From Fontibacillus panacisegetis (GTDB lineage Bacteria; Bacillota; Bacilli; Paenibacillales; Paenibacillaceae), in contig NZ_FNBG01000002.1 in NCBI RefSeq assembly GCF_900102215.1, positions 62,001 to 126,000 on the forward strand: DNA of 64,000 nucleotides, in the 5' to 3' direction. This document shows positions 31,765 through 55,188 of this stretch, piece after piece. The position numbers and the translations under genes were made by a program. The first letter of the stretch is position 1. Each line of letters begins with the position of its first letter. The notes beneath the pieces are model-generated. The model saw only the letters and a program-made list of their open reading frames with translations, did not search any database and had not been told where the DNA came from.

Positions 31765-31814
31765 ATGAGCATTCATTAGTCAATGATCATAACAATAATA
31801 AGCGTTGCAGTGAT

Positions 31815-32221
31815 GAAAGTTTGCCGTAAGCCGGGTTCTGTACTACTTCGCGGTATTAACGGGAACTACCCTCCCGCCTTGAGTGACAATCATCTATCTA
31901 GGCCGCTCATTACTGAACGGCTCCAGCGACCAACCTGAACGCATCTCGGGCTAAGACTGCTTCCTTTAACAGAAGCTGCGTTCCTTTAGGTCTTGCTCCA
32001 AGTGGGGTTTACCAGGAACGAAGTCACCAGCGTTCCTCGGGGTCTCTTACACCTCGGTTCCATCCTTGCCTGTGCTGCTTTGCAGCAGCCATCGGCGGTC
32101 CATTTCTGTGGCACTATCCTTCGACTCGCGTCGACTGGACGTTATCCAGCACCCTGCCCTATGGAGCCCGGACTTTCCTCCCGCGGCCTATAGCCGCCGG
32201 CGATTGTCTGTCAAACTTTCG
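31815..32221 (-). ncRNA. rnpB: RNase P RNA, B type
   Basis: About 406 nucleotides. Conserved landmarks on the minus strand: GAGGAAAGTCCGGGCTC near the 5' end (plus 32165-32181), the ACAGAA-type segment before GGCTTAC at the 3' end, and P1 formed by GAAAGTTTG (32212-32220) with CAAACTTTC (31815-31823), which sets the ends. It is the catalytic RNA that matures the 5' ends of tRNAs together with RnpA. Size and layout fit the Bacillus (B) type. The gene lies between nif3 and the subtilase and has its own promoter. Confidence 0.95.
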
Positions 32222-51138: not shown

Positions 51139-51501
51139 TTATGCATGGGAATTGGAACCTTGTACCAATGCACCCAATTTAGCTCCTCCAAGAAGATGAT
51201 AATGCAGATGATGCACAGTTTGTTCGCCGTCCTTACCGCAGTTATTGATCAAGCGGTATCCAGACTGGGCAATTCCAAGCTTTTCAGCTACTTCCTGAGC
51301 CACTTTGTGAAGCTCGCCGATCAATGCAAAATCCTCCATCTCAACCTCATTCATCGAAGAAATATGCTTCTTCGGAATAATCAGCACATGAACCGGAGCT
51401 GCAGGCTGAATATCATGAAAGACCAAAAAACGGTCATCTTCGTACACTTTATTCGATGGAATGGTTCCTTCGACAATTTTACAAAACAGACAGTTATCCA
51501 A
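51139..51501 (-). CDS. HIT-family nucleotide hydrolase/transferase
   Basis: About 120 residues. The histidine triad HHLHYHLLGG near residues 96-105 and the DNCLFCKIVEGTIPSNKVYEDD start are typical of HinT-type purine nucleoside phosphoramidases. The frame is open to ATG at 51531, but AGGAGGG lies six to seven bases before the TTG at 51501, giving MDNCLFCK, the usual start. It lies between the sRNA candidate at 51558-51674 and rpsU, and has its own terminator. Confidence 0.93.
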   Translation of the reverse strand: MDNCLFCKIVEGTIPSNKVYEDDRFLVFHDIQPAAPVHVLIIPKKHISSMNEVEMEDFALIGELHKVAQEVAEKLGIAQSGYRLINNCGKDGEQTVHHLHYHLLGGAKLGALVQGSNSHA

Positions 51502-51557
51502 CTGTATCCCTCCTGGTACGTATATAGTCATTCTTCACAATCATACCGAAAAAATGC

Positions 51558-51674
51558 AAAAAAAAGAAGCACCCAGCTAGCTCAAGGAGCTTCACTGATC
51601 GCACGGACGTATTGTACCGAAACTTTTCTGTACCAATACGTCCGCCGGGGTGCTTGCAAGATTGATGTCGGCTA
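51558..51674 (-). ncRNA. Candidate structured RNA or leader upstream of the HIT gene
   Basis: On the minus strand an 8-bp stem AAGCACCC/GGGTGCTT encloses a long hairpin (GGACGTATT/AATACGTCC plus GTAC/GTAC with a bulged G; plus 51604-51644) and a small hairpin (AGCTC/GAGCT), then eight T. An extended -10 (TGTTATACT, 51680-51688) lies just upstream, predicting a transcript of about 115 bases. The 3' strand of the outer stem can also pair locally (GAAGC/GCTTC). It matches no RNA family that I recall. It could be a free small RNA or an attenuator of the HIT gene, whose start is 57 bases after the T-run. Confidence 0.55.
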
Positions 51675-51735
51675 ACTGTAGTATAACAGCAGGGTGATAC
51701 TGTATCTGTGATATGCATCACTTAGTGAGAGGTTA

Positions 51736-54700
51736 TTAAATATTTTCAACTATGACCCTAGAGCCCTCTCCTCCACTCTCCGCAGGAATAACGATGAGTT
51801 TACGCGCTAGACGAGAACGGAGCTCGGCTACATGGGAAATGATACCTACCGAAAGATGATCGTCATGCAGATGCTCCAGTGACGTGATCACGGTATCCAG
51901 AAGCTCTGGGTCCAATGTACCGAAACCTTCGTCCAGGAAAAAGAACTGAAGCGGATATTGTCCTCTTAACTGAATTTGGGCTGATAAAGCCAGTGCTAAC
52001 GCCAGCGATGTAAGGAAGGTCTCCCCGCCTGATAATGTAGCTACAGGACGTTTCACACCCCCATTAGCATCGTCACAGATGACAAAACCTCCACCTGAAT
52101 CAATTTCAAGCGAATAACGCTGCTTCGTCAAGTTACGCAAACGCTGTGAGGCCGCGTGACTGACGTGCAGAAGTTGTTCTTCTGCGACGTATTCAACAAA
52201 AGCATTGCCCCGCAATGAGGATTGAAGTTTTCCTAGCAAATCAAATTCACGTGCAAGATTAAGCCGCTGCTGTTCCAGATCTTTCCAACGAACATGTCTT
52301 GTCATCAGGTCCTCCAGATCACGTTCAGCACGTGCCTTAAATTGTAATGCTTCTTCGAGCATGGACTTCGCATTATTCAGAGCTAAAGTACCATCTTCCC
52401 ACTCTTCTTCTGTTACGATTCTGCCTGCGAGCTTGTCGTCCAGCTCCCGCAGGTTGATCTCCAGCTCTCGTTCACGATCCCGGTGATTTTTAATCGTTAG
52501 GGCATATTCGTTCGCAAGTTCAGCAGCAACAAATGAATCCGTAGCTTCTGCCTCATTTTGAAAAGGTGAGACTTCCAGCTCTTCCAACCACCGCTTGTGC
52601 AGCTTTTCTTCCTGTTCCCTTGCAGAAGCATCAGCCTGCAAGGCAAGAGCGTTACTTTGAGCAGCATGATTACTGGATGCAGCAGCAATAGCTTGTCGGT
52701 TTTGGCATTCCTCAACCTGTTTCCTGAGCATTGCTAATCGTTGAGTGGCCTCAGGCAACAGCTTATCTACTGAATCCTCTCCAATCCAAGATGACAGGCG
52801 ACTATGTTTTTCTTGATACAGAGACTGTTTACCTTGCTCCTGTCCTTCCCGCTGCAGCAATTCCTTATCGAGCTCAATTAAATCTTTTCCAAGCTGAGAC
52901 AGCCTTAAATTCTTCTCCTCAATAAAAGGCACACTTAATGCTAAGCGTTGTTTAATATCCTCTGCCTTCCGATCCTTTTCAACGATTTGCTCTAGAAGTC
53001 CAGCCACAGCTTCAACAGAGATGCCCGAATGCTCGGCATTCCATTCTTTCTCTTTATCTCTTAGCTCCTCCCGGCAATTAGTAGACCTCTCTGCAGCTTG
53101 TTTAAAAAATTCTTCTGCTCCCGCTGCCTCTGTACGTACCGCAGCAAGTCGTGGCTGCAGCTCATTCAACCGGGCTATAAACGTTCTTGCTTCCTTCTGT
53201 AAACCTTCCAATTGCGGTCTAAGTAGGGCATGCTGCTCCGCAAGCGTCTGAACAGCACCATGAAGCTTAGATATTTCAAGCACTTCATAGCTCATGTCGA
53301 TTTGTAAAGAAGCTGCAGACTCTTGATTAGAATGAAATGAAATTTTATCCAAGCTATCGTTCTTACAATTCAAAGCATTCGAATCATTAAGCTGTTCTAT
53401 AACAGAGCGTGAAATTTCCATATCACGAGATACTGAAAAGTTCAGTTCTTTAACTGTCGCAAGTAATGCAGATAATTGCTCTAATTGCTTGAAACGATCA
53501 CCGACATTAAGTATCTCCTGTCCTTGACCATGTGCTTCATGTATTGGATGATGCTCCGAGCCGCACACAGGACAAGGCTGCCCTTTCTGCAATTGCTCTG
53601 CCAAACGCGAGAGCCAGACACTTTGTTCACTCTCTTTCACCCATGTGCGCAGCTGAGACTCTGCATTAGCAATCGTATTCATATGATTGGCGAGGATAAA
53701 ATCAAGTTCGTTCAATTGCAGTGCATTATCAAGTGCGAGCTTAGCTAAATCAACACATCTATCCTTGACGGTATTCTCTTCCAACGCGATCCCATGCAAA
53801 AGCTTCACGGAGCTCTCCATTTTTCCGCGCAGTTCTATTTCCTCTGCTTCAGCTTTAGCCAGTTGCTCTTGTGCTCTGATCAATTCTTTTCCAAGCCCGG
53901 CAGCGGCTTGAATACTTTGGCGTTCAGAAGCTTTAACCTCACAATCTTTCAACAGCTTTTCAAGCTCCCGCTGGCGCCCCTGAGCTTTGGCTAGCAGTTG
54001 CTCTTCCTTCTGTATTTCATCAGCAACCGATTGCCGTTTCACCCCAGAGGATTCCTGTGATGCCCGAAGCTGATTCAGTTCCTCCAACAGGCTATTGCAT
54101 TCCGATTGAAGCAGAACCGCCTGCTCTAATTGATTGATCCTTATGAGTAAGCCCGGTTCTTCCAAGCTCAGTGCAGAAGTAGCAGCAGCCAATGCCTCTG
54201 TAGCACTTACCGCTTCCTCTGTGGCAGCTTCTGACGCTTTACGGGCATACACAGCCGCCTCTTGTCGCTGCATCGAAAGTTGACGCGCTTCCTTCCAAGA
54301 GGTCAAGGCAGGCCGGATAGCCTCCGCTGCGGCTGAATGAACCAGTTTTGCTTCAAGCTGTGCGATCGTTCCGTCCTGTTCTTTAAGTTCAGTCAGTTGT
54401 ACTGAGCGCTGTCCACGCTCCATCGCAAGCTCACGTACCTTTGCAAGCCCCTCGACCTTCTTCTCAGCTTCACCCAGCTCATCTCGACGTGAATTAGCTA
54501 GTACAGCCGCCGTCTTCATTGCATGTTCAGCAGCTTGCAATGCCTCTTCAGAGGCATTTCCCAAACCCTGCTGCTCAGCCGCCAATTCCTTCAGCTTCTG
54601 ATCCGATTCTTTCACTCTGCGAGATAGTTTCTGAGCTAGTAAATCACCGTATTTTTCAAGGTGGAATAAGCGCTGAAGCATCTGTCTCCGTTCCGCCCCC

Positions 54701-55188
54701 TTAAGAGAAAGGAACTCTGCGAATTTTCCTTGCGGGAGCACAACTGCCCGTGTGAAATCATCCATCTTAAGCCCAATTTTCTCTTCAACGCATCGCGTTA
54801 CATCCGCCAGCTTATCCGCTAATACGATTTCTCGCTCCGAAGTAATCTCTATAAACCTGCTGATTGTATTGCTCACGGATAGCTCATTTTGCCTCTTGAA
54901 ACGCCGTTCGACCCGATACCGCTCAGACCCATTTGCCGACGATAATTCAAATGTGAAAGAGACGAATAACGCATCTTCCGAATGATTCATTATACCTTGT
55001 GTACCGCCAAAAGCGCGTCCTACTTTCCCGTACATAGCTAATGTTATAGCATCCAGGATAGTGGATTTTCCGCTTCCCGTCGGTCCAAAAATCCCGAATA
55101 GTCCTGTATCGCACAATGCCGTAAAATCAATTTCCTGCATCTCCCGATAACTCTGCAGACCTGATAATTTCAAGGATATCGGCTTCAA
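51736..55188 (-). CDS. sbcC: Exonuclease SbcCD subunit SbcC
   Basis: 1150 residues, SMC-like. Walker A FGPTGSGKSTILDAI near residues 34-48, two long coiled coils flanking a zinc hook (CPVCGSEHHP near 544-553), signature VATLSGGETFLTSLALALALS and Walker B FFLDEGFGTLD near the end. With SbcD it opens DNA hairpins and trims protein-blocked ends. Start is TTG eight bases behind GGAGG; sbcD ends with TAG immediately before it. Last gene of addB-addA-sbcD-sbcC. Confidence 0.97.
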   Translation of the reverse strand: MKPISLKLSGLQSYREMQEIDFTALCDTGLFGIFGPTGSGKSTILDAITLAMYGKVGRAFGGTQGIMNHSEDALFVSFTFELSSANGSERYRVERRFKRQNELSVSNTISRFIEITSEREIVLADKLADVTRCVEEKIGLKMDDFTRAVVLPQGKFAEFLSLKGAERRQMLQRLFHLEKYGDLLAQKLSRRVKESDQKLKELAAEQQGLGNASEEALQAAEHAMKTAAVLANSRRDELGEAEKKVEGLAKVRELAMERGQRSVQLTELKEQDGTIAQLEAKLVHSAAAEAIRPALTSWKEARQLSMQRQEAAVYARKASEAATEEAVSATEALAAATSALSLEEPGLLIRINQLEQAVLLQSECNSLLEELNQLRASQESSGVKRQSVADEIQKEEQLLAKAQGRQRELEKLLKDCEVKASERQSIQAAAGLGKELIRAQEQLAKAEAEEIELRGKMESSVKLLHGIALEENTVKDRCVDLAKLALDNALQLNELDFILANHMNTIANAESQLRTWVKESEQSVWLSRLAEQLQKGQPCPVCGSEHHPIHEAHGQGQEILNVGDRFKQLEQLSALLATVKELNFSVSRDMEISRSVIEQLNDSNALNCKNDSLDKISFHSNQESAASLQIDMSYEVLEISKLHGAVQTLAEQHALLRPQLEGLQKEARTFIARLNELQPRLAAVRTEAAGAEEFFKQAAERSTNCREELRDKEKEWNAEHSGISVEAVAGLLEQIVEKDRKAEDIKQRLALSVPFIEEKNLRLSQLGKDLIELDKELLQREGQEQGKQSLYQEKHSRLSSWIGEDSVDKLLPEATQRLAMLRKQVEECQNRQAIAAASSNHAAQSNALALQADASAREQEEKLHKRWLEELEVSPFQNEAEATDSFVAAELANEYALTIKNHRDRERELEINLRELDDKLAGRIVTEEEWEDGTLALNNAKSMLEEALQFKARAERDLEDLMTRHVRWKDLEQQRLNLAREFDLLGKLQSSLRGNAFVEYVAEEQLLHVSHAASQRLRNLTKQRYSLEIDSGGGFVICDDANGGVKRPVATLSGGETFLTSLALALALSAQIQLRGQYPLQFFFLDEGFGTLDPELLDTVITSLEHLHDDHLSVGIISHVAELRSRLARKLIVIPAESGGEGSRVIVENI

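Follow-up and report, generated by a model that had tools for sequence, protein, structure and literature searches.

A probable, previously uncatalogued small regulatory RNA gene with a candidate Fnr box in Paenibacillaceae

The minus strand from position 51673 to 51558 of the window (the whole 64,000-nucleotide stretch of Fontibacillus panacisegetis DNA that was analysed) very probably carries the gene for a small regulatory RNA that had not been catalogued before. Judged from its sequence, it is a stand-alone gene for an intrinsically terminated, structured sRNA, combining a predicted promoter of its own with a covarying fold and a terminator but no conserved reading frame. Taken as a whole, the features make it probable that this is an Fnr-activated, stand-alone, trans-acting sRNA that acts on mRNAs by pairing through its free 5' tail, with the fba mRNA as the leading candidate. 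The first-pass annotation had proposed an undescribed structured RNA between sbcC and a HIT-family gene, and the conservation, the covariation and the absence of an Rfam match reported below bear this out.

Parts, distribution and fold of the RNA gene

The gene and its surroundings comprise the following features.

51558–51673, minus strand: sRNA gene, about 116 nt from the predicted +1 to the end of the T run; the start is predicted
51673, minus strand: predicted +1, 7 nt past the −10
51680–51688, minus strand: extended −10 TGTTATACT, with the hexamer at 51680–51685
51696–51706, minus strand: conserved GATACAGTATC segment adjoining the box, conserved mainly as ACAGATACAG by column counts
51707–51722, minus strand: NGTGA-N6-TCACA box (AGTGATGCATATCACA), with its centre at −41.5 relative to the predicted +1; candidate Fnr site
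51656–51673, minus strand: 5' single-stranded tail AGCCGACATCAATCTTGC, 18 nt, whose core AGCCGACA is the proposed pairing seed
51648–51655, minus strand: 5' strand of the closing stem, AAGCACCC, with both-side changes in 7 of 8 pairs
51600–51647, minus strand: long hairpin 1 (CGGACGTATTG.../...CAATACGTCCG), from the minimum free energy (MFE) fold and covariation
51575–51599, minus strand: hairpin 2, variable in sequence, with many compensatory changes
51567–51574, minus strand: 3' strand of the closing stem, GGGTGCTT, followed by C and eight T
51558–51574, minus strand: intrinsic terminator formed by GGGTGCTT, C and eight U; the T run is 51558–51565
51736–55188, minus strand: sbcC, upstream neighbour, outside the RNA gene
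51139–51501, minus strand: HIT-family gene, downstream neighbour, outside the RNA gene, with a probable TTG start after AGGAGG

Searched as DNA, the RNA turned up in 36 of the 40 genus genomes, always as a single copy. A multicopy element was considered and rejected, the second match in the own genome being the palindrome of hairpin 1 read on the other strand. A covariance model built from 29 copies, with the promoter excluded, detected the RNA in 130 of 295 genomes of the family, spread over 5 of 19 genera; this model misses divergent copies (L099, L133), so some RNA-negative calls may be false. The order-wide search with the model gave matches in 65 of 198 genomes, every one of them in the same family. 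A fold-independent pattern consisting of the −10 and the 5' tail revealed 117 stretches in 84,980 species genomes, including at least one non-homologue (L178), and the 80 stretches listed came from Paenibacillus, Saccharibacillus, Fontibacillus and one 'Bacillus sp. FJAT-27264'.

The Rfam scan assigned no family to the RNA at gathering score, in agreement with the earlier remark that it resembled no known family. Up to E = 5 it returned only ctRNA_p42d (E 0.6) and BtsR1 (E 3.2), both far below their gathering scores and rejected, and neither the FnrS nor the RoxS/RsaE covariance model gave a match within this limit. The only Rfam match at gathering score in the window was the class A RNase P RNA (31812–32219, minus strand). 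A search of the open-access literature found, among titles and the first parts of abstracts, no description of this RNA and no Fnr-controlled sRNA of Gram-positive bacteria.

Folding of positions 51550–51680 gave an MFE of −43.8 kcal/mol, compared with −31.2 ± 3.7 kcal/mol for shuffled sequences (n = 200; z = −3.4), and one of the 200 shuffles reached the native value. The MFE structure contains a three-way junction closed by AAGCACCC/GGGTGCTT; the extended −10, the junction of about 115 bases and the eight T described by the first-pass annotation are all present. Compensatory changes in the stems among relatives, which had been set as a check, are abundant: in 78 sequences aligned to the covariance model, 25 of 26 pairs exhibited changes on both sides. 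Standard pairs filled 94.7% of pair cells versus 33–46% when the partners were slid, and the covariation score was 0.382 versus 0.159 for shuffles and 0.03–0.07 for slid partners, all in an alignment that was fitted to the model and that favours the pairing figures. These 78 sequences were taken from 81 loci (L001 and 80 thinned from 118 distinct RNAs), of which the three most divergent (L095, L125 and L130) are absent. A plain MAFFT alignment of the genus already contained compensatory changes in hairpin 2, and in other genera the sequence of hairpin 1 differs yet still pairs. Covariation across relatives supports the predicted fold.

Single folding of 126 distinct RNAs, drawn from 166 extracted copies after leaving out four without a T run and two that were too long (L099 and L133), revealed two hairpins inside the closing stem in 112 cases, three in 12 and no junction in two, one of which (L029) had been shortened by the T-run rule. 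At least nine of the first 10 nt were unpaired in the MFE structures of 102 of these 126 copies. The two long RNAs, both from Saccharibacillus, measure about 264 nt, and their hairpin 1 is enlarged by an insert of well over 100 nt; they keep promoter, box, tail and terminator, and the covariance model reports neither. A small protein as the product was rejected, since frame lengths vary widely among copies: the longest closed ORF had fewer than 10 codons in 73 of the 126 copies and at least 20 in 27, with a maximum of 32.

The annotation had also read the RNA as an attenuator or leader of the HIT gene, in which the terminator would be read through on a signal by way of an alternative fold pairing GAAGC with GCTTC of the 3' closing strand. 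The HIT gene of the window starts 57 nt past the T run on the same strand, GAAGC could pair there with the closing strand, and in all 143 of the 162 T-run copies where a HIT gene was found it lay downstream on the same strand, at most 100 nt away in 53 of the 143. However, its distance from the RNA ranged from 49 to 3772 nt and was at least 400 nt in 60 of the 143; opposite-strand ORFs of 315–386 aa intervene in L198 and L137; GAAGC occurred in the corresponding stretch of only 24 of 126 distinct copies, and is not a general partner; and the promoter box keeps its position whatever the HIT distance. All 30 genus copies aligned share the same final closing strand and T run. Because the HIT distance varies so widely, the RNA is not a HIT leader; with neither a constant position before HIT nor a conserved alternative pairing, the attenuator or riboswitch reading was dropped, and we consider such cis action very improbable. 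On the other side of the gene, 127 of 162 copies had an SbcC match upstream in the same orientation, and in 25 copies with more than 1500 nt of upstream sequence no SbcC match was found there.

Two further observations concern the neighbouring reading frames. The HIT gene of the window probably starts at TTG 51501, after AGGAGG, rather than at ATG 51531. In seven copies from other genera (L069, L198, L068, L137, L066, L096 and L080), the first ORF after the RNA encodes a protein of 112–148 aa, which in most of them ends like RRRFN..(L/V)LPL..L..LP(Y/F)Y; two of these proteins were scanned, giving one LSM (Sm-like) match below cut-off (Pfam E 0.065) and none, respectively.

The promoter box and its candidate regulator

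Comparison of the promoter regions revealed an NGTGA-N6-TCA[CT] box at a single position, centred at −41.5, in 162 of 166 extracted copies, which are not independent, several genomes being counted twice. The four copies without it are L095 and L105 (both cut by the locus end), L118 (a variant) and the non-homologue L178. Both the −10 and the tail were used for extraction, so their constancy across the 166 copies is partly by construction, and L071 was missed by the extraction rule. Among divergent copies found by the covariance model, from which the promoter was excluded, the −10 and the box lay at the same distance in 20 of 20. The putative regulator site upstream, suggested by the annotation, corresponds to one box at a fixed position; of the three small inverted repeats it had described, only TGATATGCATCA is conserved, forming the core of the GTGA-N6-TCAC box at 51707–51722. 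By column counts, what is kept of the GATACTGTATC region is mainly the sequence ACAGATACAG, and there is hardly any conservation upstream of the box.

A centre at −41.5 is where Crp/Fnr proteins sit as class II activators. Beside the box no good or clear −35 element was seen, and together with the fixed spacing this fits an activator. The own genome encodes an Fnr homologue that has cysteines near its C-terminus, and the gene beside it we take to be adhE; NCBIfam gave no name above cut-off for this homologue. In the 295 family genomes, an Fnr match at E 1e-121 or better was present in all 130 RNA-positive genomes, the RNA occurred in none of the 35 genomes without an Fnr match at 1e-25, and it was not detected in 130 of 260 Fnr-positive genomes; this co-occurrence follows phylogeny and is no independent proof. 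From box type, spacing and the presence of the homologue, we consider Fnr quite likely to be the regulator of the RNA.

The own genome contains 18 exact TGTGA-N6-TCACA sites, compared with none for the reversed control. Inspection of 15 of the 18 revealed sites before nirB-, cydA-, hmp-, hemH- and NADH oxidase-like genes (the names hmp and hemH scored above the NCBIfam cut-off, nirB and cydA below it) and another before what is presumably pflB, while several precede genes without an evident anaerobic role. A −10-like hexamer with 4–5 of 6 matches lay 21–22 nt from the site for pflB, nirB and hmp, and at most of the 15 sites no such hexamer was seen at class II spacing before the gene. The sites are likely to represent an Fnr/Rex regulon, some of whose members could serve Rex.

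A stand-alone sRNA whose box is bound by another regulator, either the repressor Rex or another Crp-family protein, so that the signal would be redox or something else and not oxygen through Fnr, is the main alternative on the regulatory side. Five HTH_Crp_2 proteins score above cut-off in the own genome, and passages of PMC2883068 give the Rex recognition sequence as TTGTGAAW4TTCACAA, located before anaerobic genes in S. aureus, and indicate that TGTGA-N6-TCACA sites can serve Rex too. Against this, the Rex-type core A....T was found in none of 163 boxes and T....A in 76, a composition on which Rex was rejected; a box kept at −41.5 in a promoter lacking a clear −35 is what one would expect for an activator, and an Fnr homologue accompanies the RNA in every RNA-positive genome. 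We regard control by a regulator other than Fnr as rather unlikely.

The 5' tail, fba and other candidate partners

No other part of the RNA is as constant as the 5' tail, which is nearly invariant and mostly unpaired. AGCCGACATC occurred in 30 of 30 genus copies, and in the divergent copies found by the model AGCCGACA was present in 18 of 20 and GCCGACA in 19 of 20, the exceptions being GCCGATA in L066 and a T before GCC in L078.

In the scan for targets, TGTCGGCT, which is complementary to the tail, was required within 30 nt before GGAGG in 24 genus genomes. By far the commonest match was the leader of fba (class II fructose-bisphosphate aldolase), in at least 15 genomes among the matches listed. 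In the genus, TGTCGGCT of fba starts about 6–9 nt from the predicted mRNA 5' end, and the site ends 37–43 nt before the start codon. At fba, TGTCGGC was found in 34 of the 45 genomes with the RNA and in 4 of the 19 without it (Fisher 7.5e-5, not allowing for relatedness), in a table covering 64 of 80 genomes, as 13 had no match at the threshold and the leaders of three, all RNA-negative, were not parsed by the start rule. Within the own genus (28 genomes) the division was complete, with TGTCGGC in 24 of 24 RNA-positive and none of four RNA-negative genomes, all four of which keep the flanking GTGTGA, although these four may be a single lineage. Outside the genus, 10 of the 21 RNA-positive genomes have the exact 8-mer at fba, as do 3 of the 15 RNA-negative ones, and a fourth RNA-negative genome keeps TGTCGGC; by these counts the link between the RNA and the fba site is weaker there.

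Co-folding of the fba leader with the RNA gained about 13 kcal/mol while the RNA body stayed folded. The duplex with fba in the own genome had a predicted energy of −18.3 kcal/mol, a value equalled by 75 of 6388 windows of the 64-kb stretch (overlaps with the RNA gene included); energy ranking in a single genome was uninformative. Base pairing through the 5' tail is in our judgement likely, and for fba as its predicted target we put the chances at about even.

The alternative to be weighed here is a structured sRNA that acts by binding a protein or through another region, the tail being conserved for other reasons and fba being no target. The sequence of hairpin 1 is nearly invariant within the genus, beyond what pairing needs; the fba site is not conserved everywhere, and conservation of the fba leader might be owed to its own promoter or to other signals. 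On the other hand, the two model-found copies L076 and L077 of group g8 have diverged in body sequence and kept tail and box, a pattern repeated in L095, L125, L130 and L174, although these four were found by their tail; and the RNA-negative members of the genus lost the fba site with its flank kept. Action of this kind, through a protein or another region and with fba no target, is in our estimate improbable, at roughly one chance in a handful.

Pairing through the tail, the preferred reading, probably extends beyond fba. In group g6, fba of this type was found in none of 10 genomes at the threshold used; since the RNA does occur in several genomes of g6, partners of the tail other than fba are required. 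The constancy of the tail, greater than fba would need, likewise points to further partners. In the own genome, complementarity of 14–15 nt was confined to the gene's own locus, and 10-nt complementarity occurred at 11 places, one of them the gene itself, versus seven for the reversed control. Apart from fba, the scans near Shine-Dalgarno sequences gave recurrent matches in about 2–5 genomes each among those listed, apparently in coding sequence, and also returned 23S rRNA. The tail segment AGCCGACATC is perfectly complementary over 10 bases to GATGTCGGCT of 23S rRNA (L309:3756–3765, confirmed as LSU rRNA), and AGCCGACAUC of the tail likewise has a perfect complement in 23S rRNA, in the GAUGUCGGCU segment. 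Pairing with the ribosome or its precursor, as a universal partner, could be what holds the seed constant, or the complementarity may be due to chance. A separate occurrence of GATGTCGGCT in the own genome (C29:88125–88134, minus strand; L224 / L310) lies near a predicted mRNA 5' end, in a leader about 50 nt before what is presumably a metN-like ABC transporter gene.

Proposed mechanism and comparison with known systems

Under low oxygen, Fnr, a Crp-family iron-sulphur activator, would bind the GTGA-N6-TCAC box at −41.5 and activate a promoter whose extended −10 is good and which lacks a clear −35. The resulting RNA of about 116 nt would fold into two hairpins inside a closing stem that doubles as the intrinsic terminator; the nearly invariant 5' tail AGCCGACA would stay unpaired and could serve as a seed. 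This tail would pair with the first bases of the fba mRNA, at TGTCGGCT about 40 nt before the start codon, and pairing at this extreme 5' end might shield the mRNA from 5'–3' exonuclease, much as RoxS does for yflS. A larger supply of aldolase would suit fermentation; alternatively, the pairing could repress fba. Those steps that can be read from the alignments are the conserved predicted promoter, the box, the terminator, the covarying fold and the conserved, apparently free 5' tail. Stabilisation of fba rather than its repression, which leans on the RoxS analogy, is a tentative choice and somewhat the less probable side of the question. Tentative to a further degree, and on balance unlikely, is the complete proposal of a Paenibacillaceae RNA family acting as an Fnr-controlled anaerobic riboregulator that activates glycolysis by capping the fba mRNA 5' end and blocking 5'–3' decay.

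Paenibacillaceae include nitrogen fixers and fermenters. If confirmed, the RNA would give the family an oxygen-responsive RNA regulator of its own, combining a simple promoter with a strongly conserved seed, and would allow control of a glycolytic mRNA by an sRNA at the very 5' end to be tested; if true, this would be a direct link from oxygen to glycolysis through RNA. The RNA appears to be switched on when oxygen is exhausted and may tune a gene of sugar breakdown, in which it would resemble unrelated small RNAs of E. coli and Bacillus.

FnrS of E. coli and AniS of Neisseria are FNR-activated anaerobic sRNAs. The present RNA resembles them in being the product of a small, putatively trans-acting RNA gene that has an Fnr-type box where an activator would bind and ends in a predicted intrinsic terminator; it differs from them in phylum, fold, tail and predicted glycolytic target, and by the absence of an Rfam match. 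In the related species Paenibacillus riograndensis (strain SBR5), RNA-seq revealed 27 intergenic sRNAs, three of them with a known name, according to passages of PMC5670726; the present RNA could be among the others, none of which is described in those passages as an Fnr target. A further comparison is RoxS/RsaE of Bacillus and Staphylococcus, a redox-linked sRNA of Firmicutes of about 115 nt, as the present RNA appears to be (passages of PMC5419742 and PMC8464778). As described there, ResD and Rex control RoxS, which uses C-rich regions for pairing, chiefly CRR3, whereas the present RNA has an Fnr-type box and a putative 5'-terminal seed. The parts of PMC5419742 consulted report that RoxS pairs with the 5' end of yflS in B. 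subtilis, with a predicted energy of −13.7 kcal/mol, protecting the mRNA from RNase J1 and enhancing ribosome binding. Set beside these systems, the RNA is probably a new family of a known kind, that of oxygen- or redox-controlled base-pairing sRNAs.
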